Virus record (IMG/VR): IMGVR_UViG_3300000216_000008
Location: 3,785-35,913 of that record
DNA: 32,129 nt
Direction: 5' to 3' (one strand)
From: a virus
A program made the translations under genes and the position numbers. This document shows positions 3,722 to 29,093 of the stretch, in pieces (positions within the stretch are counted from its first letter, which is position 1; the number at the start of each line of letters is the position of its first letter). The notes beneath the pieces were generated by a model. The model saw only the letters and a program-made list of their open reading frames with translations, did no database searches and was not told the DNA's origin.

Positions 3722-5242
3722 TTATAGTTCTGAGTCTGCTGTGTAATGGAAACCTATAGAATGATCGCCAGTTGCCGCACCATTCACACCTGAAACATAT
3801 GCTCCTGTAAAACCTATACGAGCAGCAGTAGCATTAACGCTTCCCGCTGGCATTGTTACCTTACCAGATGTACCCGCTTCATCGTAAACCACCATAGTTG
3901 GTTGCGCCCTCATAGTCATAGGGAATTTAACTGCAACAGCCAATAAAAAATCAGCACTTGTATTACCCGAATCTCTGGAATATATAGACCCGTCTGTATC
4001 AGCAGTTCCCGGTGCAACGTCATAATCATAACTTTTGCTATAATACCTCTGACACTTAGCCAGTTCATCACCATACTGCCGATATTCAAAGTCTGTGGCT
4101 GTTGAGCCAAGCTCAAATTGGACTTGAGCAAGCCAGAAGTTGTTGTCTGTTGAATCTACTCCGTTTACTTGGTTGGAGGTTGCCCAGTCTTGTGCTGAAT
4201 TCCATGTATCCGCAACTCCTTGAAAGTCTGATCCCATTGCAATAGTCCATGATATATGTAAACCTATTCCATTAGTATAATCCCAGGTTCCCCCGCTATA
4301 ATCAAAGGTAAGAGTAACCGTTTTCTTTTCCCATGTGCTTGCTGAATTGATTGTATATTCAGCTACATAACTTCGATCACCAGTGCTACTTGTAAACGCT
4401 ACACAATAAATACCTGTTTTAACAGCCTTAACCCAAAAACTTAAAGTGGCAGTTTTTCCAACGAAAGGAGCAAAATTGTAGCCTTCAATATTTTGCAAAA
4501 TTGCAACTCTATCATTTGAGGCTATTGAAGCATCTGCGGTTGTAACATCTAATTTCATTGAATAATTGCTTTTATGCCCTGACTCAGACTGTGTTGGAAC
4601 ATCTGTATCTCTACTGACAGTTGTTACTGCTGTACTAAGAAGAAAATATGTAAATCTATCAGCGTGGTAATTACCATTCGCAATAGCAGCAAAACTCGTA
4701 CCCCTCTGCCAGATATTGAAGTCACCGTTTATTATGGCGTTTTTGTTGCCTTGGAGGTCTGCTATTTTTGCATGAGGGATACCGTCATCTGAAAGACCGG
4801 TCATAGAAGTAATGTCTGAGTTTGCTCCAACTTCAGCACCAGATATTTGCACCCACCATGTCCCATCATCTCCAACAGGGTCATGTCCAGTGTTGCTCCC
4901 CTGTGCTGCCCTGTATGTTTTTGAATCAGAACCCCAAGTAACATCACCATCATCATAGGTTGTGCCAATCAACCATTCGGTTGCCCCTGATGCTGCAATT
5001 GCTGCTGCCTGTGCTGCTTCTGCGGCAGTCTGAGCAGTTTCAGCATCAGTAGAATATCCATCAACCGCTGTGGATAAAGCATTCATTTGAGCAGTTAAAA
5101 CAATTAGTTCTCCTGTGGTAGCTGCTCCCCATAATGAAAGAACAGTTAAAAACGCATCAGCCCTTGTATCAAAATTATCCGGATCAGTCCTTTGTGGGGC
5201 AGTCCCAGGATCACTGATTGTTTGTGCAATTTGATAAGCCAT
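3722..5242 (-). CDS. Receptor-binding tail fibre/tip protein with carbohydrate-binding modules
   Basis: This protein has 506 residues. The N-terminal 75 residues are Ala/Thr-rich and helical (AETAQTAAEAAQAAAIAAS), like a fibre shaft. Residues of about 88-132 (EWLIGTTYDDGDVTWGSDSK and onward to DGTWW) have the W-GxxYxxGD-Y pattern of a CBM5/12-like chitin/sugar-binding module. From about residue 165 (NAIINGDFNIWQRGTSF) a jelly-roll carbohydrate-binding region begins, as seen in many phage host-specificity proteins. The C-terminal 80 residues are small-residue-rich and beta-like. Together these suggest a surface glycan-binding adsorption protein. It follows another large tail protein by 11 bases. 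Confidence 0.7.
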   Translation of the reverse strand: MAYQIAQTISDPGTAPQRTDPDNFDTRADAFLTVLSLWGAATTGELIVLTAQMNALSTAVDGYSTDAETAQTAAEAAQAAAIAASGATEWLIGTTYDDGDVTWGSDSKTYRAAQGSNTGHDPVGDDGTWWVQISGAEVGANSDITSMTGLSDDGIPHAKIADLQGNKNAIINGDFNIWQRGTSFAAIANGNYHADRFTYFLLSTAVTTVSRDTDVPTQSESGHKSNYSMKLDVTTADASIASNDRVAILQNIEGYNFAPFVGKTATLSFWVKAVKTGIYCVAFTSSTGDRSYVAEYTINSASTWEKKTVTLTFDYSGGTWDYTNGIGLHISWTIAMGSDFQGVADTWNSAQDWATSNQVNGVDSTDNNFWLAQVQFELGSTATDFEYRQYGDELAKCQRYYSKSYDYDVAPGTADTDGSIYSRDSGNTSADFLLAVAVKFPMTMRAQPTMVVYDEAGTSGKVTMPAGSVNATAARIGFTGAYVSGVNGAATGDHSIGFHYTADSEL

Positions 5243-22299: not shown

Positions 22300-22375
22300 T
22301 GGGGATCACAAGTCCTTTTTTTTCTCATTTTGCCTCTTTTTTCGCAACTTGTCAAATATAAAAATACCCTCATAT

Positions 22376-24496
22376 TTATTTTCGCCCTTTTTTCGTCAGA
22401 GTTTTGATCAATTTTATTTCGCCACTCGCTGAAGCAAGCTCAGATAAAGATACTTTCCCTGATTTCCAAAGAGCATATCTGGTTGGGCCAAGGATCTGGG
22501 TTTTGACTGCTGTGGAAACACCATTAAAATAATCCTCATATGTGCCCAGGAATCTTCCAGTTGAAATAAACTTTCCACCGCCTACTCCAATTTTACCAGG
22601 AAGGATCTTGCCGGTAACAGGCTCAATCTCACCTCTTATTGTATATGGTCTGAATTGGTCCTTTATTTCATCGGTATCCACTCCTAATTCGCGGAAGGTC
22701 TTTGTAATATATTCAGGAAAGCATCTGCAATTACTTGACAACATACCTCCGACGTAGTACATTGTAGAAAAACATTGGAGGTCATAAACATGTCCAGAAA
22801 AATGCCGCTTGCCCAAGAACTTGAGATTGCCCGTCTTTACCGTTCCGGCCTTATGGAGAAGGAAATTTGCAAGATGTTCCCCTTTGGCCGCAAACTTATT
22901 TCTGATGCTATTATCCGTCAAGGCATCGTGAAAAGAACCAGATCCGAAGTTGCGAACAAACTTTTCGATAGTGGATACACTATAGATTTCCGCCCCGACT
23001 TGGATATTGATCTCATTTGCAATCTTTACAAGAGTGGATTCTCTTCGTACCAAATCGGAAAAAGACTTAATGCTAGTGAGGGGACTATCCGGCGTAGAAT
23101 TAGGAAAGCTGGCGTGCCTGTCAGGAGCTATGCCAGGGCCACTTCTAATAGGTTCGCCCGCATGACAGTTGCTGAACGCCTCGCACACGGAAAGGCCACC
23201 GGTGACCGCTTGCGTGGCAAGCCCCACACTAAAAAACACAGAAAAGCTCTCGCAAAGGCTCGTGAAATCAATGTCACACATGTTGGAATAGGCGAAAAGA
23301 CGCTTGCCAACATTCTTGAAAATGCTGGAATTTATATTGTCAGACAAAAAGCCGTTGGCGTATACAATATCGACGTTGCCATTCCCAAATATAGCATCGC
23401 CGTGGAAGTCACTTGCGGATATGGGTGCACTGCTGCCGGGCGTCCCAGAAATATAAAAAGAGTTAAATATTTGTTTGAAAGTGGTTGGCATGTCTTGTAT
23501 ATTCTTATTGACAAACATCCCATCCAGCCGACCATCATAAATAATGTCAATAGAATCATTAATATCATTAGCACTGATAATACCACTGGTTGTCAGAAAT
23601 GGGTGATTAGGGGTAACGGAGAACAAGTCGCCGGATGGTGATTCAAAGTCATATACAATGCCATCATAATTAAATCTCGTGGCCGCTATTGCATCAGGGG
23701 CGTACACTTGTGAATCCCCTGTATAACAGTTCATATGTAATGGCATTTCTGGCCCACCATCAATGGGATATATTTCTTCTTTTGCTGATAAGGATAAACA
23801 CCTGATGCAAGTCCTATTCTCTGCAACACTGTTCCATTTCTTGCCCTTGATAATATCGTCATTGGCTCTCGCGACGTCATGCATTGCATTAACGTTCACA
23901 GATTGGACATAAGTTCTTGTCAGGCTTTCCATATCGCCACTAAATTGTTTATATACCCCAGAATTAAATTGCTTTAACATATCAGAATAAGATTGACCCA
24001 TTAACATCCCTGAGGTTATTTTAGACTTAAAATCGTCTTGCAGTCGTTTAGAAAAATTATTGCCCACCCACTCATTGAGAAGCTTTCCACCGACCTTTGT
24101 TTTTGTGACAAGGGATGTCATCTGAGCAGAGGAAAGAGCCACATGGTTGAAGTTAGGAATCAAGCCATTAAAAGAAGCTATTTTATTATGCTCAATATAA
24201 GATGCTTTTCCAGCAATCTCTGTTGTTCTGGCAATGTCATTTGTTATCTGAGCCTGAATTCCTTTTGTAAGGGCTTCCATCTCATTGGCAAGGGTATTCA
24301 TCCTTTCTACAGAGAAAACCGATTCAGGGTTTATTGTACCGAGCTTCTTACTGATAATTGACTGGGTTTTCCTGACTGATTTATTAATATCCTTCAAAGC
24401 CTTATTCTCATACTGGCTGAGTTTATAATCCCATTGGGTTTTTCGGGCAAGCTGAATTAATCTCTGCATTTCGTTATCTGTTAGTTTAGTTGTCAT
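22376..24496 (-). CDS. MuF/SPP1 gp7-type minor head protein interrupted by an intein
   Basis: The 706-residue precursor consists of N-extein 1-256, intein 257-589 and C-extein 590-706. Joining the exteins gives 373 residues. The MuF region (about 185-260) contains TYVQSVNVNAMHDVARANDD and then GKKWNSVAENRTCIRCLSLS. The highly conserved LHxNCRC ending is split so that LHMN lies before the intein and CRCF after it. This family sits inside the head at the portal. The ATG lies inside the end of the preceding small gene and has GGGG nine bases upstream. Splicing at Cys257 and Asn589/Cys590 restores the conserved motif exactly. Confidence 0.85.
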   Translation of the reverse strand: MTTKLTDNEMQRLIQLARKTQWDYKLSQYENKALKDINKSVRKTQSIISKKLGTINPESVFSVERMNTLANEMEALTKGIQAQITNDIARTTEIAGKASYIEHNKIASFNGLIPNFNHVALSSAQMTSLVTKTKVGGKLLNEWVGNNFSKRLQDDFKSKITSGMLMGQSYSDMLKQFNSGVYKQFSGDMESLTRTYVQSVNVNAMHDVARANDDIIKGKKWNSVAENRTCIRCLSLSAKEEIYPIDGGPEMPLHMNCYTGDSQVYAPDAIAATRFNYDGIVYDFESPSGDLFSVTPNHPFLTTSGIISANDINDSIDIIYDGRLDGMFVNKNIQDMPTTFKQIFNSFYISGTPGSSAPISASDFHGDAIFGNGNVDIVYANGFLSDNINSSIFKNVGKRLFAYSNMCDIDFTSLCESFSVFFSVGLATQAVTGGLSVCEAFSNCHAGEPIRSGPGIAPDRHASFPNSTPDSPLTSIKSFSDLVRRESTLVKIANEINIQVGAEIYSVSTIEKFVRNFGSGSFHDALTDNSIRNKFAAKGEHLANFLLHKAGTVKTGNLKFLGKRHFSGHVYDLQCFSTMYYVGGMLSSNCRCFPEYITKTFRELGVDTDEIKDQFRPYTIRGEIEPVTGKILPGKIGVGGGKFISTGRFLGTYEDYFNGVSTAVKTQILGPTRYALWKSGKVSLSELASASGEIKLIKTLTKKGRK
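22735..22763 (+). promoter_or_regulatory. Putative promoter for the antisense endonuclease
   Basis: A perfect -35 box (TTGACA, 22735-22740) is followed after 17 bases by TACATT (22758-22763), which matches four of six bases of the -10 consensus. Transcription would begin near 22770. The whole element lies within the intein, starting five bases inside its edge, on the strand opposite to the Hint C-terminal codons (Leu-Ser-Ser is the antisense of TTGACA). Confidence 0.6.
22777..22781 (+). promoter_or_regulatory. Ribosome binding site of the antisense endonuclease
   Basis: GGAGG lies eight bases before the ATG at 22790, ideal Shine-Dalgarno spacing. On the opposite strand the same bases are in the codons for Asp572-Leu573-Gln574 of conserved block F (YDLQ). 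The site decides the start: the upstream TTG at 22775 overlaps the GGAGG and is rejected. Confidence 0.8.
22790..23641 (+). CDS. Vsr/PD-(D/E)XK-like homing endonuclease nested antisense in an intein
   Basis: This 283-residue protein has an N-terminal helix-turn-helix (about 10-44, with LEIARLYRSGLMEKEICKMF) and a second at about 72-108 (LICNLYKSGFSSYQIGKRLN). A NUMOD3-like segment follows (about 139-158, GDRLRGKPHTKKHRKALAKA). A nuclease domain at about 167-243 carries E169 (GEKTLANILENAG), D195 (YNIDVAIP) and E206 (IAVEVTCG), then the helix and strand FESGWHVLYILIDKH. This matches Vsr/EDxHD-type free-standing homing endonucleases. All codons are in register with the minus-strand intein frame. 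By hand count its 18 Leu and 14 Ser codons include no TTA, CTA or TCA. The likely role is cutting intein-free alleles of the minor head gene. Confidence 0.85.
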   Translation: MSRKMPLAQELEIARLYRSGLMEKEICKMFPFGRKLISDAIIRQGIVKRTRSEVANKLFDSGYTIDFRPDLDIDLICNLYKSGFSSYQIGKRLNASEGTIRRRIRKAGVPVRSYARATSNRFARMTVAERLAHGKATGDRLRGKPHTKKHRKALAKAREINVTHVGIGEKTLANILENAGIYIVRQKAVGVYNIDVAIPKYSIAVEVTCGYGCTAAGRPRNIKRVKYLFESGWHVLYILIDKHPIQPTIINNVNRIINIISTDNTTGCQKWVIRGNGEQVAGW

Positions 24497-24653
24497 TACT
24501 TTTTACCCCATACCAGGCATCTATAATATTACAAGTTTCTTCGACATCTTTCCGATCCTTTTGATAAGGATAAATCATAAATGCCAAACGATCCAAAATA
24601 CAGGACAGCTTGAATCGGATTTTATCAAATAGACTTGCTTTAACAGTTGTCAT
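24486..24653 (-). CDS. Small coupled protein, 55 residues
   Basis: This short frame (MTTVKASLFDKIRFKLSCIL to KSNDN) was found by direct reading. Its ATG overlaps the TGA of the upstream small gene by 4 bases. Its end overlaps the minor head gene start by 11 bases. It is basic, helical and carries two Cys. The close coupling on both sides argues for a real gene; the function is unknown. Confidence 0.5.
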   Translation of the reverse strand: MTTVKASLFDKIRFKLSCILDRLAFMIYPYQKDRKDVEETCNIIDAWYGVKSNDN

Positions 24654-26684: not shown

Positions 26685-29093
26685 TCACCATGTGGCCGTT
26701 GTTGTTGTTGATATTTCCTGAATTGGAAACTCTGCATGTGTGAAATATCGCATTGCCGTTGTTATATGTTGAAACTCTGAATCTTCTTCTTGAAAGGATG
26801 ATCCTTTTTTTAACTGGACAGAGGCAAGCCCCTTGTCAGCATATCTGCATTTACTTGGATTCACAAAAAAAGACCTCTCACCTTTTGCATTGCATATTTT
26901 GGCTCTCAAGCTATTCTGACCATCCTTTATTGAGGGATTGGATCTGGGCACTTCCATTCTCACTCTGAAGCCCTCTTTTTTCAAGATCTGCTCAATCTCT
27001 AAATAATCAGATATATGTCCATGTTTCTCGCCAATGTGCCCATAATTATCACCATATATGACCACTTGACACCGTTTAAAATTTTTATATCTATCAACAA
27101 ATTCCAAGGCAGATTGTTTTGCTACTGCACTATTTAGCACAATTTCATCCACAGTGTAAACAACATCATCCTTTCTCTGCATTATTGCGGAGCTCAAAGG
27201 GGTGAAATTTTGGTCATGAGTCCACAGGATATCTCCCAATTCCGGATCAAAAACCCTATCAGTGTGATTATCAAGAGAATAATCCTCATAGACCCTTCCA
27301 GTTGCATTTTTAAAGGCTGCTTCATATTCCTGCTCAAACTGCATTTTAGAGAGTTGCCGTTTGGCTGCTTCAATCATCTCTGGTGGCAAGATCTCAGAGC
27401 TCTTCCATGTGTAGCCTCTCCAATCTTTGTCATCAGATGTGATTGCATACTGATATCTATCATAGTAATGATTTAAGCCCTCTGGCACTCCAAAAAGCCA
27501 GCACCAGGGCTTGTAATCAGGCATGGTTGGATTGAATGTGTCAAGGGCAGGAGAAATGTGCTCACCCCAGGCATTCTCTTTCAGATCTCCAAACTCATCA
27601 ATGCCACCACCAGCCCAAAAAACACCCTCAATCCTTTCAGGCTTATCAAGACCAATAACGCTTATGGAAGCACCATTTGGAAAAAATATAATTAAATCGG
27701 TTTCACTTGGTCTTTTTGTATGAAGAGAACAGAAGGAAAGCAGCTTGAGATCATCCCAGAAAATTCTCTTGGCTTGATCCCTGGTGGGAGCAGCTGCAAA
27801 ATATGGCATACCATCATTGTTCATTGCCTGATCCACAACAAACCTTTTAAATCTTTCCGTTTTGCCTGAATTAGAGGTTATTATTCCACCGTGATGCAGC
27901 ACATACATATTAGAATCATTTGAAACAGTTATATCATAAGCCCTTGATTCAGCTTTTTCTCTATGTGTGAGGCTTATCCTATCTGGCAACACACTTGTGG
28001 TCTTGAGTGGAGATAAATCAAAAGAATCAGCCTTTAAAGATTTTCCCTTTAAGGCTTTGATAATATTAATTGCCTGGATGTTTGAAGTTGTCTTTAAAGA
28101 ATACACACACCCATTTTTATATTTTTCTCTGTCATCAATGCCTATTGTTGGAATATCTTGGAAATATTTGAATATAATTTTCTGGCAACATGCCACAACA
28201 CTCTCAGCCTGCATTGATATGCAAAGCACACCCTCTTTTTTTGACTTTGTTTTATAATAAATAGAGCCATCAGTGTCTATAATGCCAGCAAGATACATCA
28301 GGGCAGATTCTCTATCCCACAGGTTGATTTCTTCCCAGATAGCTATTTTTTCATGTGCATATCTACCCTCTACCCACTCACTATAAAATGGAATAGTTTG
28401 AACAACACCCAGCCCACAATAAATTTTATATGTAAAATTCCCATGTTTTGGGGCTGTGCATTTTCCACCAATCTCATCTGCTACTCTGCAAGGTATTGAG
28501 TTGTTACCACTGGAAATATAAAGGCTGGTTTGATATTGATGAGTTGTTGCCTTGTTATCCCTGGAACATCCATCTCCTGTCATAGCCCCAAGAGAATATG
28601 TGTTCATGACTTCTTTTTTGCCACCCCTGATGAGATCACCAAGATATTCACGCTTAACTCTTGACCTCTTGCCTATTGTGGAAATTTCACGCTTTTTATA
28701 TCCACTGGCTGCTTTTAAGTGCTCCCTTCTTTTATCATAATAGGATTCACAGCAGGCAAGAAGCTTGTGGTTTATAGTGGCTCTCAGATATTCTGTATTA
28801 TAAGAGCCCATAGAAACAACCTCTGCAATCCCATTATCCCATGTTTTTGATATAGTTGTTTCAGATATAGATCCATCATTGTTATACCCAAAAATTATAT
28901 CACCAACTGCCAGTGTCTCAATCTTTTTTGGGCCTGCTGGGGTGGCAACCAGAGTGCCTTTAGCCAAGCATCTCCTTCCAGATGGAATAACTTTAAACCT
29001 CACAAGGTCATCAACAAGTGCAAGCTGCTTCTCATGTTCAATGAGTTTATACCATCTCTGCACTTCTCTTTGTGTGGTCATTGGTAAAAGCAT
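26685..29093 (-). CDS. terL: Large terminase with an intein in its P-loop
   Basis: The 802-residue precursor joins to 435 residues after removal of the intein (residues 42-408). Splicing of ...PSGRR to SGKTERF rebuilds the Walker A motif PSGRRSGKT. Walker B is GGIDEFGD at about 496-503. The nuclease half shows the acidic positions THDQNF (Asp627), VYTVDEIV (Asp649, Glu650) and IYGDNYG (Asp682). It is the motor and nuclease that packages DNA, with the small terminase as partner. The ATG at 29093 is just after the small terminase stop. An in-frame ATG at 29081 is an alternative. Confidence 0.9.
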   Translation of the reverse strand: MLLPMTTQREVQRWYKLIEHEKQLALVDDLVRFKVIPSGRRCLAKGTLVATPAGPKKIETLAVGDIIFGYNNDGSISETTISKTWDNGIAEVVSMGSYNTEYLRATINHKLLACCESYYDKRREHLKAASGYKKREISTIGKRSRVKREYLGDLIRGGKKEVMNTYSLGAMTGDGCSRDNKATTHQYQTSLYISSGNNSIPCRVADEIGGKCTAPKHGNFTYKIYCGLGVVQTIPFYSEWVEGRYAHEKIAIWEEINLWDRESALMYLAGIIDTDGSIYYKTKSKKEGVLCISMQAESVVACCQKIIFKYFQDIPTIGIDDREKYKNGCVYSLKTTSNIQAINIIKALKGKSLKADSFDLSPLKTTSVLPDRISLTHREKAESRAYDITVSNDSNMYVLHHGGIITSNSGKTERFKRFVVDQAMNNDGMPYFAAAPTRDQAKRIFWDDLKLLSFCSLHTKRPSETDLIIFFPNGASISVIGLDKPERIEGVFWAGGGIDEFGDLKENAWGEHISPALDTFNPTMPDYKPWCWLFGVPEGLNHYYDRYQYAITSDDKDWRGYTWKSSEILPPEMIEAAKRQLSKMQFEQEYEAAFKNATGRVYEDYSLDNHTDRVFDPELGDILWTHDQNFTPLSSAIMQRKDDVVYTVDEIVLNSAVAKQSALEFVDRYKNFKRCQVVIYGDNYGHIGEKHGHISDYLEIEQILKKEGFRVRMEVPRSNPSIKDGQNSLRAKICNAKGERSFFVNPSKCRYADKGLASVQLKKGSSFQEEDSEFQHITTAMRYFTHAEFPIQEISTTTTATW
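27870..28970 (-). mobile_element. Intein with LAGLIDADG endonuclease in the terminase P-loop
   Basis: This 367-residue intein starts at Cys42 (CLAKGTLVATPAG) and ends at Asn408 (GGIITSN) before Ser409. Block B is YLRATINHKLLA, and block F/G is RAYDITVSNDSNMYVLHHGG. Two LAGLIDADG-like helices are visible in the middle at about 167-175 of the precursor (SLGAMTGDG) and 267-276 (YLAGIIDTDG), so the endonuclease is in the same frame, as is usual. It again ends in Ser-Asn rather than His-Asn. Insertion at the P-loop of a terminase is a known type of conserved intein site. Confidence 0.9.

Follow-up and report, generated by a model that had tools for sequence, protein, structure and literature searches.

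Canonical mobile inteins carry a LAGLIDADG or HNH nuclease in frame between the two halves of a Hint splicing domain, interrupt essential genes at conserved motifs, and occur as presence/absence alleles. In fractured genes with split inteins, a free-standing EDxHD (Vsr-like) nuclease gene is located between the halves. The viral intein analyzed here has the three features of the canonical type, a Hint domain within a conserved motif of an essential host gene, a predicted nuclease between the Hint halves, and alleles with and without the element, but the nuclease is a separate gene on the other strand with its own putative promoter and ribosome binding site (RBS), and the middle of the sense protein appears to be a passive linker. 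With the fractured genes it shares a Vsr-like nuclease that is encoded within an intein by a gene of its own, but here the nuclease gene is antisense and overlaps the splicing blocks, and the intein-bearing gene is one unbroken open reading frame (ORF). By fold and by profile, the nuclease core is most like I-Bth0305I (PDB 3r3p), although the title of this structure names a mobile intron protein and not an intein-encoded one, and similarity in the core is only about 20%. An antisense homing endonuclease gene, for which expression and cleavage were shown, is known from the nuclear group I intron L2066 of Didymium squamulosum (PMC9548176). There, too, the endonuclease gene lies antisense to a gene with a splicing element, but L2066 is an RNA intron in rDNA, so that the other strand need not encode a protein and there is no dual protein coding (PMC9548176). 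Finally, hidden out-of-frame HNH insertions have been described in the methylases of phages ShiLan and Pacc40 (PMC11855218). These resemble the present case in being phage insertions that leave the host frame uninterrupted and encode a nuclease in an overlapping frame, but the nuclease is of the HNH type, a splicing domain is absent, and there is no detectable RBS (PMC11855218).

In the literature that we searched, no intein with an endonuclease gene on its antisense strand was described. This novelty is provisional, since a preprint by Gosselin, Arsenault and Gogarten, which reportedly deals with actinobacteriophage inteins of non-canonical architecture, may overlap with our findings and could describe the element, because Gordonia phages carry the antisense-type intein. 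The published notes on phage Snoke only mention the intein, and in the Escherichia and Salmonella phages examined, the intein was annotated and the nuclease was not. Gene finders that call genes on one strand thus overlook a nuclease family in well-studied phages.

The locus is located in a 32-kb stretch, hereafter the window, of the 35.9-kb IMG/VR virus record IMGVR_UViG_3300000216_000008 (positions 3,785 to 35,913), and its features are listed in Table 1. An earlier note, made from the letters of the window, had proposed that the minor head gene contains a 333-residue intein whose homing endonuclease gene is complete on the opposite strand. Based on sequence comparisons and structural models, we consider it highly probable that this is a mobile intein and that its homing endonuclease, instead of being an in-frame domain, is encoded by an autonomous gene nested within it in antisense. 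In the computations, both frames are open, conserved, and under selection, the promoter, Shine-Dalgarno (SD) sequence, and start codon are conserved, the plus-strand product has a nuclease fold, and intein-present and intein-absent alleles both occur. The best reading of the sequence is that the minus strand encodes splicing and the plus strand cleavage, both being predicted activities.

Table 1. Features of the intein-bearing head gene and its antisense gene, in window coordinates.
Feature	Position	Strand	Basis
Minor head (MuF / SPP1 gp7-type) gene with intein, 706 aa	22376..24496	-	ORF list; PHROG head proteins; Phage_Mu_F on N-extein
N-extein coding part, 256 aa, end ...PLHMN	23729..24496	-	Profile-based ends
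C-extein coding part, start CRCFPEY..., including stop	22376..22729	-	Profile-based ends
Intein, 333 aa, Cys1 to Asn333, then Cys+1	22730..23728	-	Profile-based ends; fold match to inteins
Ordered N-terminal Hint part, residues 1-123, block A C1, block B TPNH	23360..23728	-	AlphaFold pLDDT mostly 83-97; alignments
Ordered C-terminal Hint part, residues 295-333, blocks F and G	22730..22846	-	AlphaFold; conservation
Sense linker, intein residues 127-290, predicted disordered	22859..23350	-	AlphaFold; column conservation test
Intein block F HVYDLQ, residues 313-318; His codon CAT is antisense ATG	22775..22792	-	
Predicted homing endonuclease gene, 283 codons plus stop, ATG 22790, stop 23641	22790..23641	+	ORF, profile and fold matches
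Sigma-70-like promoter TTGACA-N17-TACATT within intein block G	22735..22763	+	Conserved beyond synonymous-codon null
Shine-Dalgarno GGAGGT, antisense of block F D-L-Q codons	22777..22782	+	
First helix-turn-helix unit, residues 7-43	22808..22918	+	Helices H7-18, H23-29, H34-43 (predicted)
Second helix-turn-helix unit, residues 73-106	23006..23107	+	Pfam matches; AlphaFold
Vsr/DUF559-like nuclease core, residues 165-240, E169, D195, E206	23282..23509	+	Profile and fold matches; conservation
Overprinted site: plus YNIDVA (192-197, catalytic D195), minus GNVDIV region	23363..23380	both	Column test
Doubly constrained site: minus DFHGD (107-111), plus IAVEV (203-207, catalytic E206)	23396..23410	both	Column test

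The Phage_Mu_F match to the N-extein is weak (0.007). Rejoining the exteins gives PLHMN|CRC, and the insertion point, HMN|CRC, corresponds to the MuF H-x-N-C-R motif, which reads AHPNCRS in an intein-free Stenotrophomonas phage. From C1 to N333, followed by Cys, the intein measures exactly the 333 residues that had been proposed, and host gene and intein together are 706 uninterrupted codons, which sets the element apart from split inteins and fractured genes. Both C1 and N333 are invariant across 65 aligned inteins and C+1 is present; Hint blocks B (TPNH, TxxH), F (HVYDL), and G were all found, with a variable penultimate residue (S, H, K, R, or Q). The Hint ends are kept in the minus frame, and the best PDB fold matches of the ordered parts are inteins, with a probability of up to 0.99 but an E-value of 0.03 or weaker. 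Positions 22300-24600 contained no Rfam match to a group I or II ribozyme at E<=1, and an intron of either group was rejected on this basis. The large terminase gene (window 26685-29093) has an intein as well, in this case an ordinary one with weak matches to Hint_2 and to an in-frame LAGLIDADG.

The plus-strand ORF (22775-23641) and the minus-strand ORF (22376-24496) are both open, and the 283-codon gene, from its ATG to its stop, is located entirely within the intein, as had been claimed. The two genes are codon-aligned, with the codons of one gene pairing, as reverse complements, with codons of its partner. Antisense-stop codons (TTA, CTA, or TCA) make up 4.4% of the codons in the other minus-strand genes of the window, from which a p-value of about 3e-6 follows for a 283-codon antisense ORF, counting the window alone, and in the other minus-strand genes tested the antisense ORF in this phase was never longer than 112 codons. 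Used as a single query for related loci, the window protein gave no match. Homologues of the plus-strand protein were found in hundreds of phage contigs, with 108 matching records in the phage collection, and domains of it in unrelated free-standing genes. We classified 119 loci systematically; they came from IMG/VR, from phage records, and from bacterial genomes, and some were near-identical, the analyzed set comprising 95 distinct inteins. In 119/119 the gene was nested inside an intein-bearing ORF in the same phase, which speaks against chance. Since these loci were found via the nuclease and not via the intein, the nesting was not built into the sampling. Additional full-length matches in bacterial genomes had the same nested arrangement, and eight further Hint-N relatives from phage records, one of them divergent, all carried the antisense gene. 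Among the Hint-N relatives fetched, we looked for one lacking the antisense gene, as a control, and found none; loss of mobility was therefore not observed. Three loci have peculiarities of their own. An identical nuclease copy is located on a 3,145-base contig (JABINC010000024.1) binned with a Candidatus Peregrinibacteria genome, which could reflect a host, a prophage, or a binning error. The public annotation of LC507823 contains a 134-aa fragment of the antisense gene (1718-2119) as "hypothetical protein". In locus L025 (3399-7589), a portal-MuF fusion gene carries two inteins, one with an in-frame LAGLIDADG and one of the antisense type.

A phase that is codon-aligned in every locus would also be expected if only the minus-strand intein were real and the plus-strand ORF were conserved through the reverse complement, and it fits this explanation that the full-length plus-strand protein never occurs outside such inteins; a free-standing full-length homologue was sought in about 800 bacterial genomes and not found. 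The substitution pattern argues otherwise, because the rates flip strand within the intein. In close pairs of exteins, the third position of the sense codon was the fastest (log2 of sense position 3 over position 1, +1.26 and +2.26), in the nuclease core the order was reversed (-1.04), and in the Hint ends it returned; an independent alignment gave the same strand crossover. The exteins evolve as a minus-strand protein and the middle of the intein as a plus-strand protein. Purifying selection on the plus-strand codons is evident from an overlap-aware count in the best sampled cluster, Jersey/Kaguna, with a nuclease dN/dS of 0.09-0.19. In the sense frame, dN/dS was about 0.25-0.6 for the Hint ends (0.30 and 0.25 in other close pairs) and, in close pairs other than Jersey/Kaguna, 0.74 for the linker. 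We also compared, column by column, the conservation of one frame with that imposed by the other by randomizing synonymous codons. Sense identity in the linker was 0.147 versus 0.145 expected from the nuclease alone, hence its conservation in the sense frame is imposed by the antisense gene. Plus-frame conservation, on the other hand, far exceeded what the sense protein would impose. At H109-G110-D111, opposite A204-V205-E206, both frames were above expectation. AlphaFold gave a pLDDT of about 32-56 over most of the sense middle versus a mean of 91 for the plus-strand protein, which was modeled as two helix-turn-helix (HTH) units and an alpha/beta core.

Expression signals for the nuclease gene, which the earlier note overlooked, appear to be overprinted on the splicing motifs. 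Read in reverse, block F HVYDLQ is TTGGAGGTCATAAACATG, i.e., the SD and ATG of the nuclease, and the codon choice follows this use: the block F Leu codon is CTC in 53/60 loci versus 9.8 expected, and the His codon is CAT in 57/64 versus 28 expected. About 26 nt upstream of the nuclease start, block G contains the promoter pattern TTGACA-N17-TATAAT, all 12 bases of which are matched in 13 loci. A strong promoter or extended -10 was found in 43/71 relatives versus 4.6 (maximum 10) in synonymous shuffles and 0/700 in extein stretches, and an SD in 58/71 versus 11.4 under shuffling. A strong recognizable promoter is missing in about 40% of the loci. Several loci with Pro in place of the block F His have the Leu codon TTA, a stop in the nuclease frame, and the start seems to have shifted downstream; in two such loci (L026 and L050), the Pro codon forms a new AGGAG. 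The codon choice in block F and the promoter, together with the matches of the plus-strand protein to independent nuclease and HTH families and genes and the results above, leave a passively conserved ORF with next to no chance of being the explanation, and we rejected this null on the homology, position-flip, column, and codon-choice tests. The double coding withstood every test set to refute it (homology, selection, and Hint conservation).

Judged from profiles and structural models, the plus-strand protein is a real predicted nuclease of the Vsr/DUF559/MTES_1575-like kind. Among 65 relatives, Pfam assigned REase_MTES_1575 to 50/65, DUF559 to 18/65 (E<=0.01), and the resolvase HTH_7 to 35/65; for the window protein alone, the nuclease family match was 5.6e-5, which is below Pfam gathering. 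The two HTH units that had been proposed are visible in the AlphaFold model and have HTH family matches, but the proposed NUMOD3-like segment found no counterpart, neither in Pfam at E<=1 for the window protein nor in the 25 families listed for the relatives. A fold search returned I-Bth0305I first and then Vsr, and a profile search of the PDB matched 3r3p, deposited as a mobile intron protein, the fold library entry being the I-Bth0305I catalytic domain. In bacterial genomes, the profile also matched ordinary sense-strand DUF559-type genes (such as the L135 protein), and partial matches were DUF559 proteins, MTES_1575-like large proteins, and HTH proteins. The putative catalytic residues are where they had been placed and are conserved in 62/65 (E169), 65/65 (D195), and 65/65 (E206) relatives; invariant residues are K187, A188, Y192, N193, D195, and E206.

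The core had been described as Vsr/EDxHD-like. The Vsr-like part of this assignment holds, but the His of the HD pair (E..WH, after E206), present as WH in 43/65 relatives, is absent in the window copy, which is therefore not classed as EDxHD and whose activity is uncertain. The nuclease of the window may thus be catalytically dead or altered and the element kept by descent, with the architecture functional in other phages, in keeping with the lack of WH in its whole clade (window, L008, L041, L045, and L051). Yet this clade retains E169, D195, and E206 and shows nuclease-frame selection (position 3 versus position 1, p about 8e-9, pooled over pairs that are not independent), window and L008 are 40% identical in the nuclease frame versus 23% in the other frame, and the promoter, SD, and ATG of the window copy are all intact, so we regard a dead copy as unlikely.

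For the mobile intein with a nested antisense endonuclease, we propose the following mechanism. On the minus strand, the head gene would be translated through the intein, the Hint ends would fold with the middle of ~160 residues as a passive linker, and the intein would splice itself out of the head protein. On the plus strand, the sigma-70-type promoter in block G and the SD/ATG in block F would drive the two-HTH Vsr/DUF559-like nuclease, which may cleave MuF alleles that lack the intein, at the HPN|CRC codons, after which repair would copy the intein in. With a promoter to itself, the enzyme could be produced before the late head operon is expressed, and independently of it. We lean slightly towards the view that this mobile intein represents a class not described before, in which the DNA coding for the splicing domain also holds a complete autonomous homing endonuclease transcription unit on the other strand, with the promoter overlying block G, the SD and start overlying block F, and the catalytic residues opposite conserved sense residues. 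If so, invasion would be freed from host-gene expression and the enzyme could act early in infection, which may explain how a selfish element can produce its nuclease early although it resides in a late structural gene. The region would also be a large natural case of dual coding, about 280 codons long, in which selection is measurable on both proteins and homologues allow a test of each frame. The overprinting of a promoter, RBS, and start codon on splicing motifs makes the evolution of overlapping genes directly testable.

Alleles of the Jersey-type gene bear on mobility. The gene matched 405 phage records, only 58 of which cover at least 80% of the intein-bearing query, and typical other records lack exactly 816 nt, the length of the intein, with flanks that are 90% alike. 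Between intein-bearing and empty alleles, similarity drops from 0.84-0.86 to 0.72-0.74 within 30 nt of the site (three empty alleles only), a suggestive pattern that would be expected from co-conversion or resistant sites. Intein versus extein identity as a test for horizontal transfer gave only a modest signal. The same intein type occurs at another MuF site (L116), in VG15-type proteins (L001 and L029), and in a deaminase-like gene (L124). A real nuclease could still have another role than homing of this intein, for instance in marker exclusion of competitor phages, or be mainly an HTH repressor, as the likeness of its HTH units to resolvase and sigma region 4 domains may hint. This is very unlikely in view of the strict linkage of nuclease and intein, the alleles that differ by exactly the intein, the relatives at different insertion sites, and the closest solved relative, which is a homing endonuclease domain. 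The deaminase-like gene at L124 (1408-2814, virus Rctr197k) has exteins that by eye resemble the dCMP deaminase zinc motif and carries the annotation head morphogenesis, for which the intein may be responsible.
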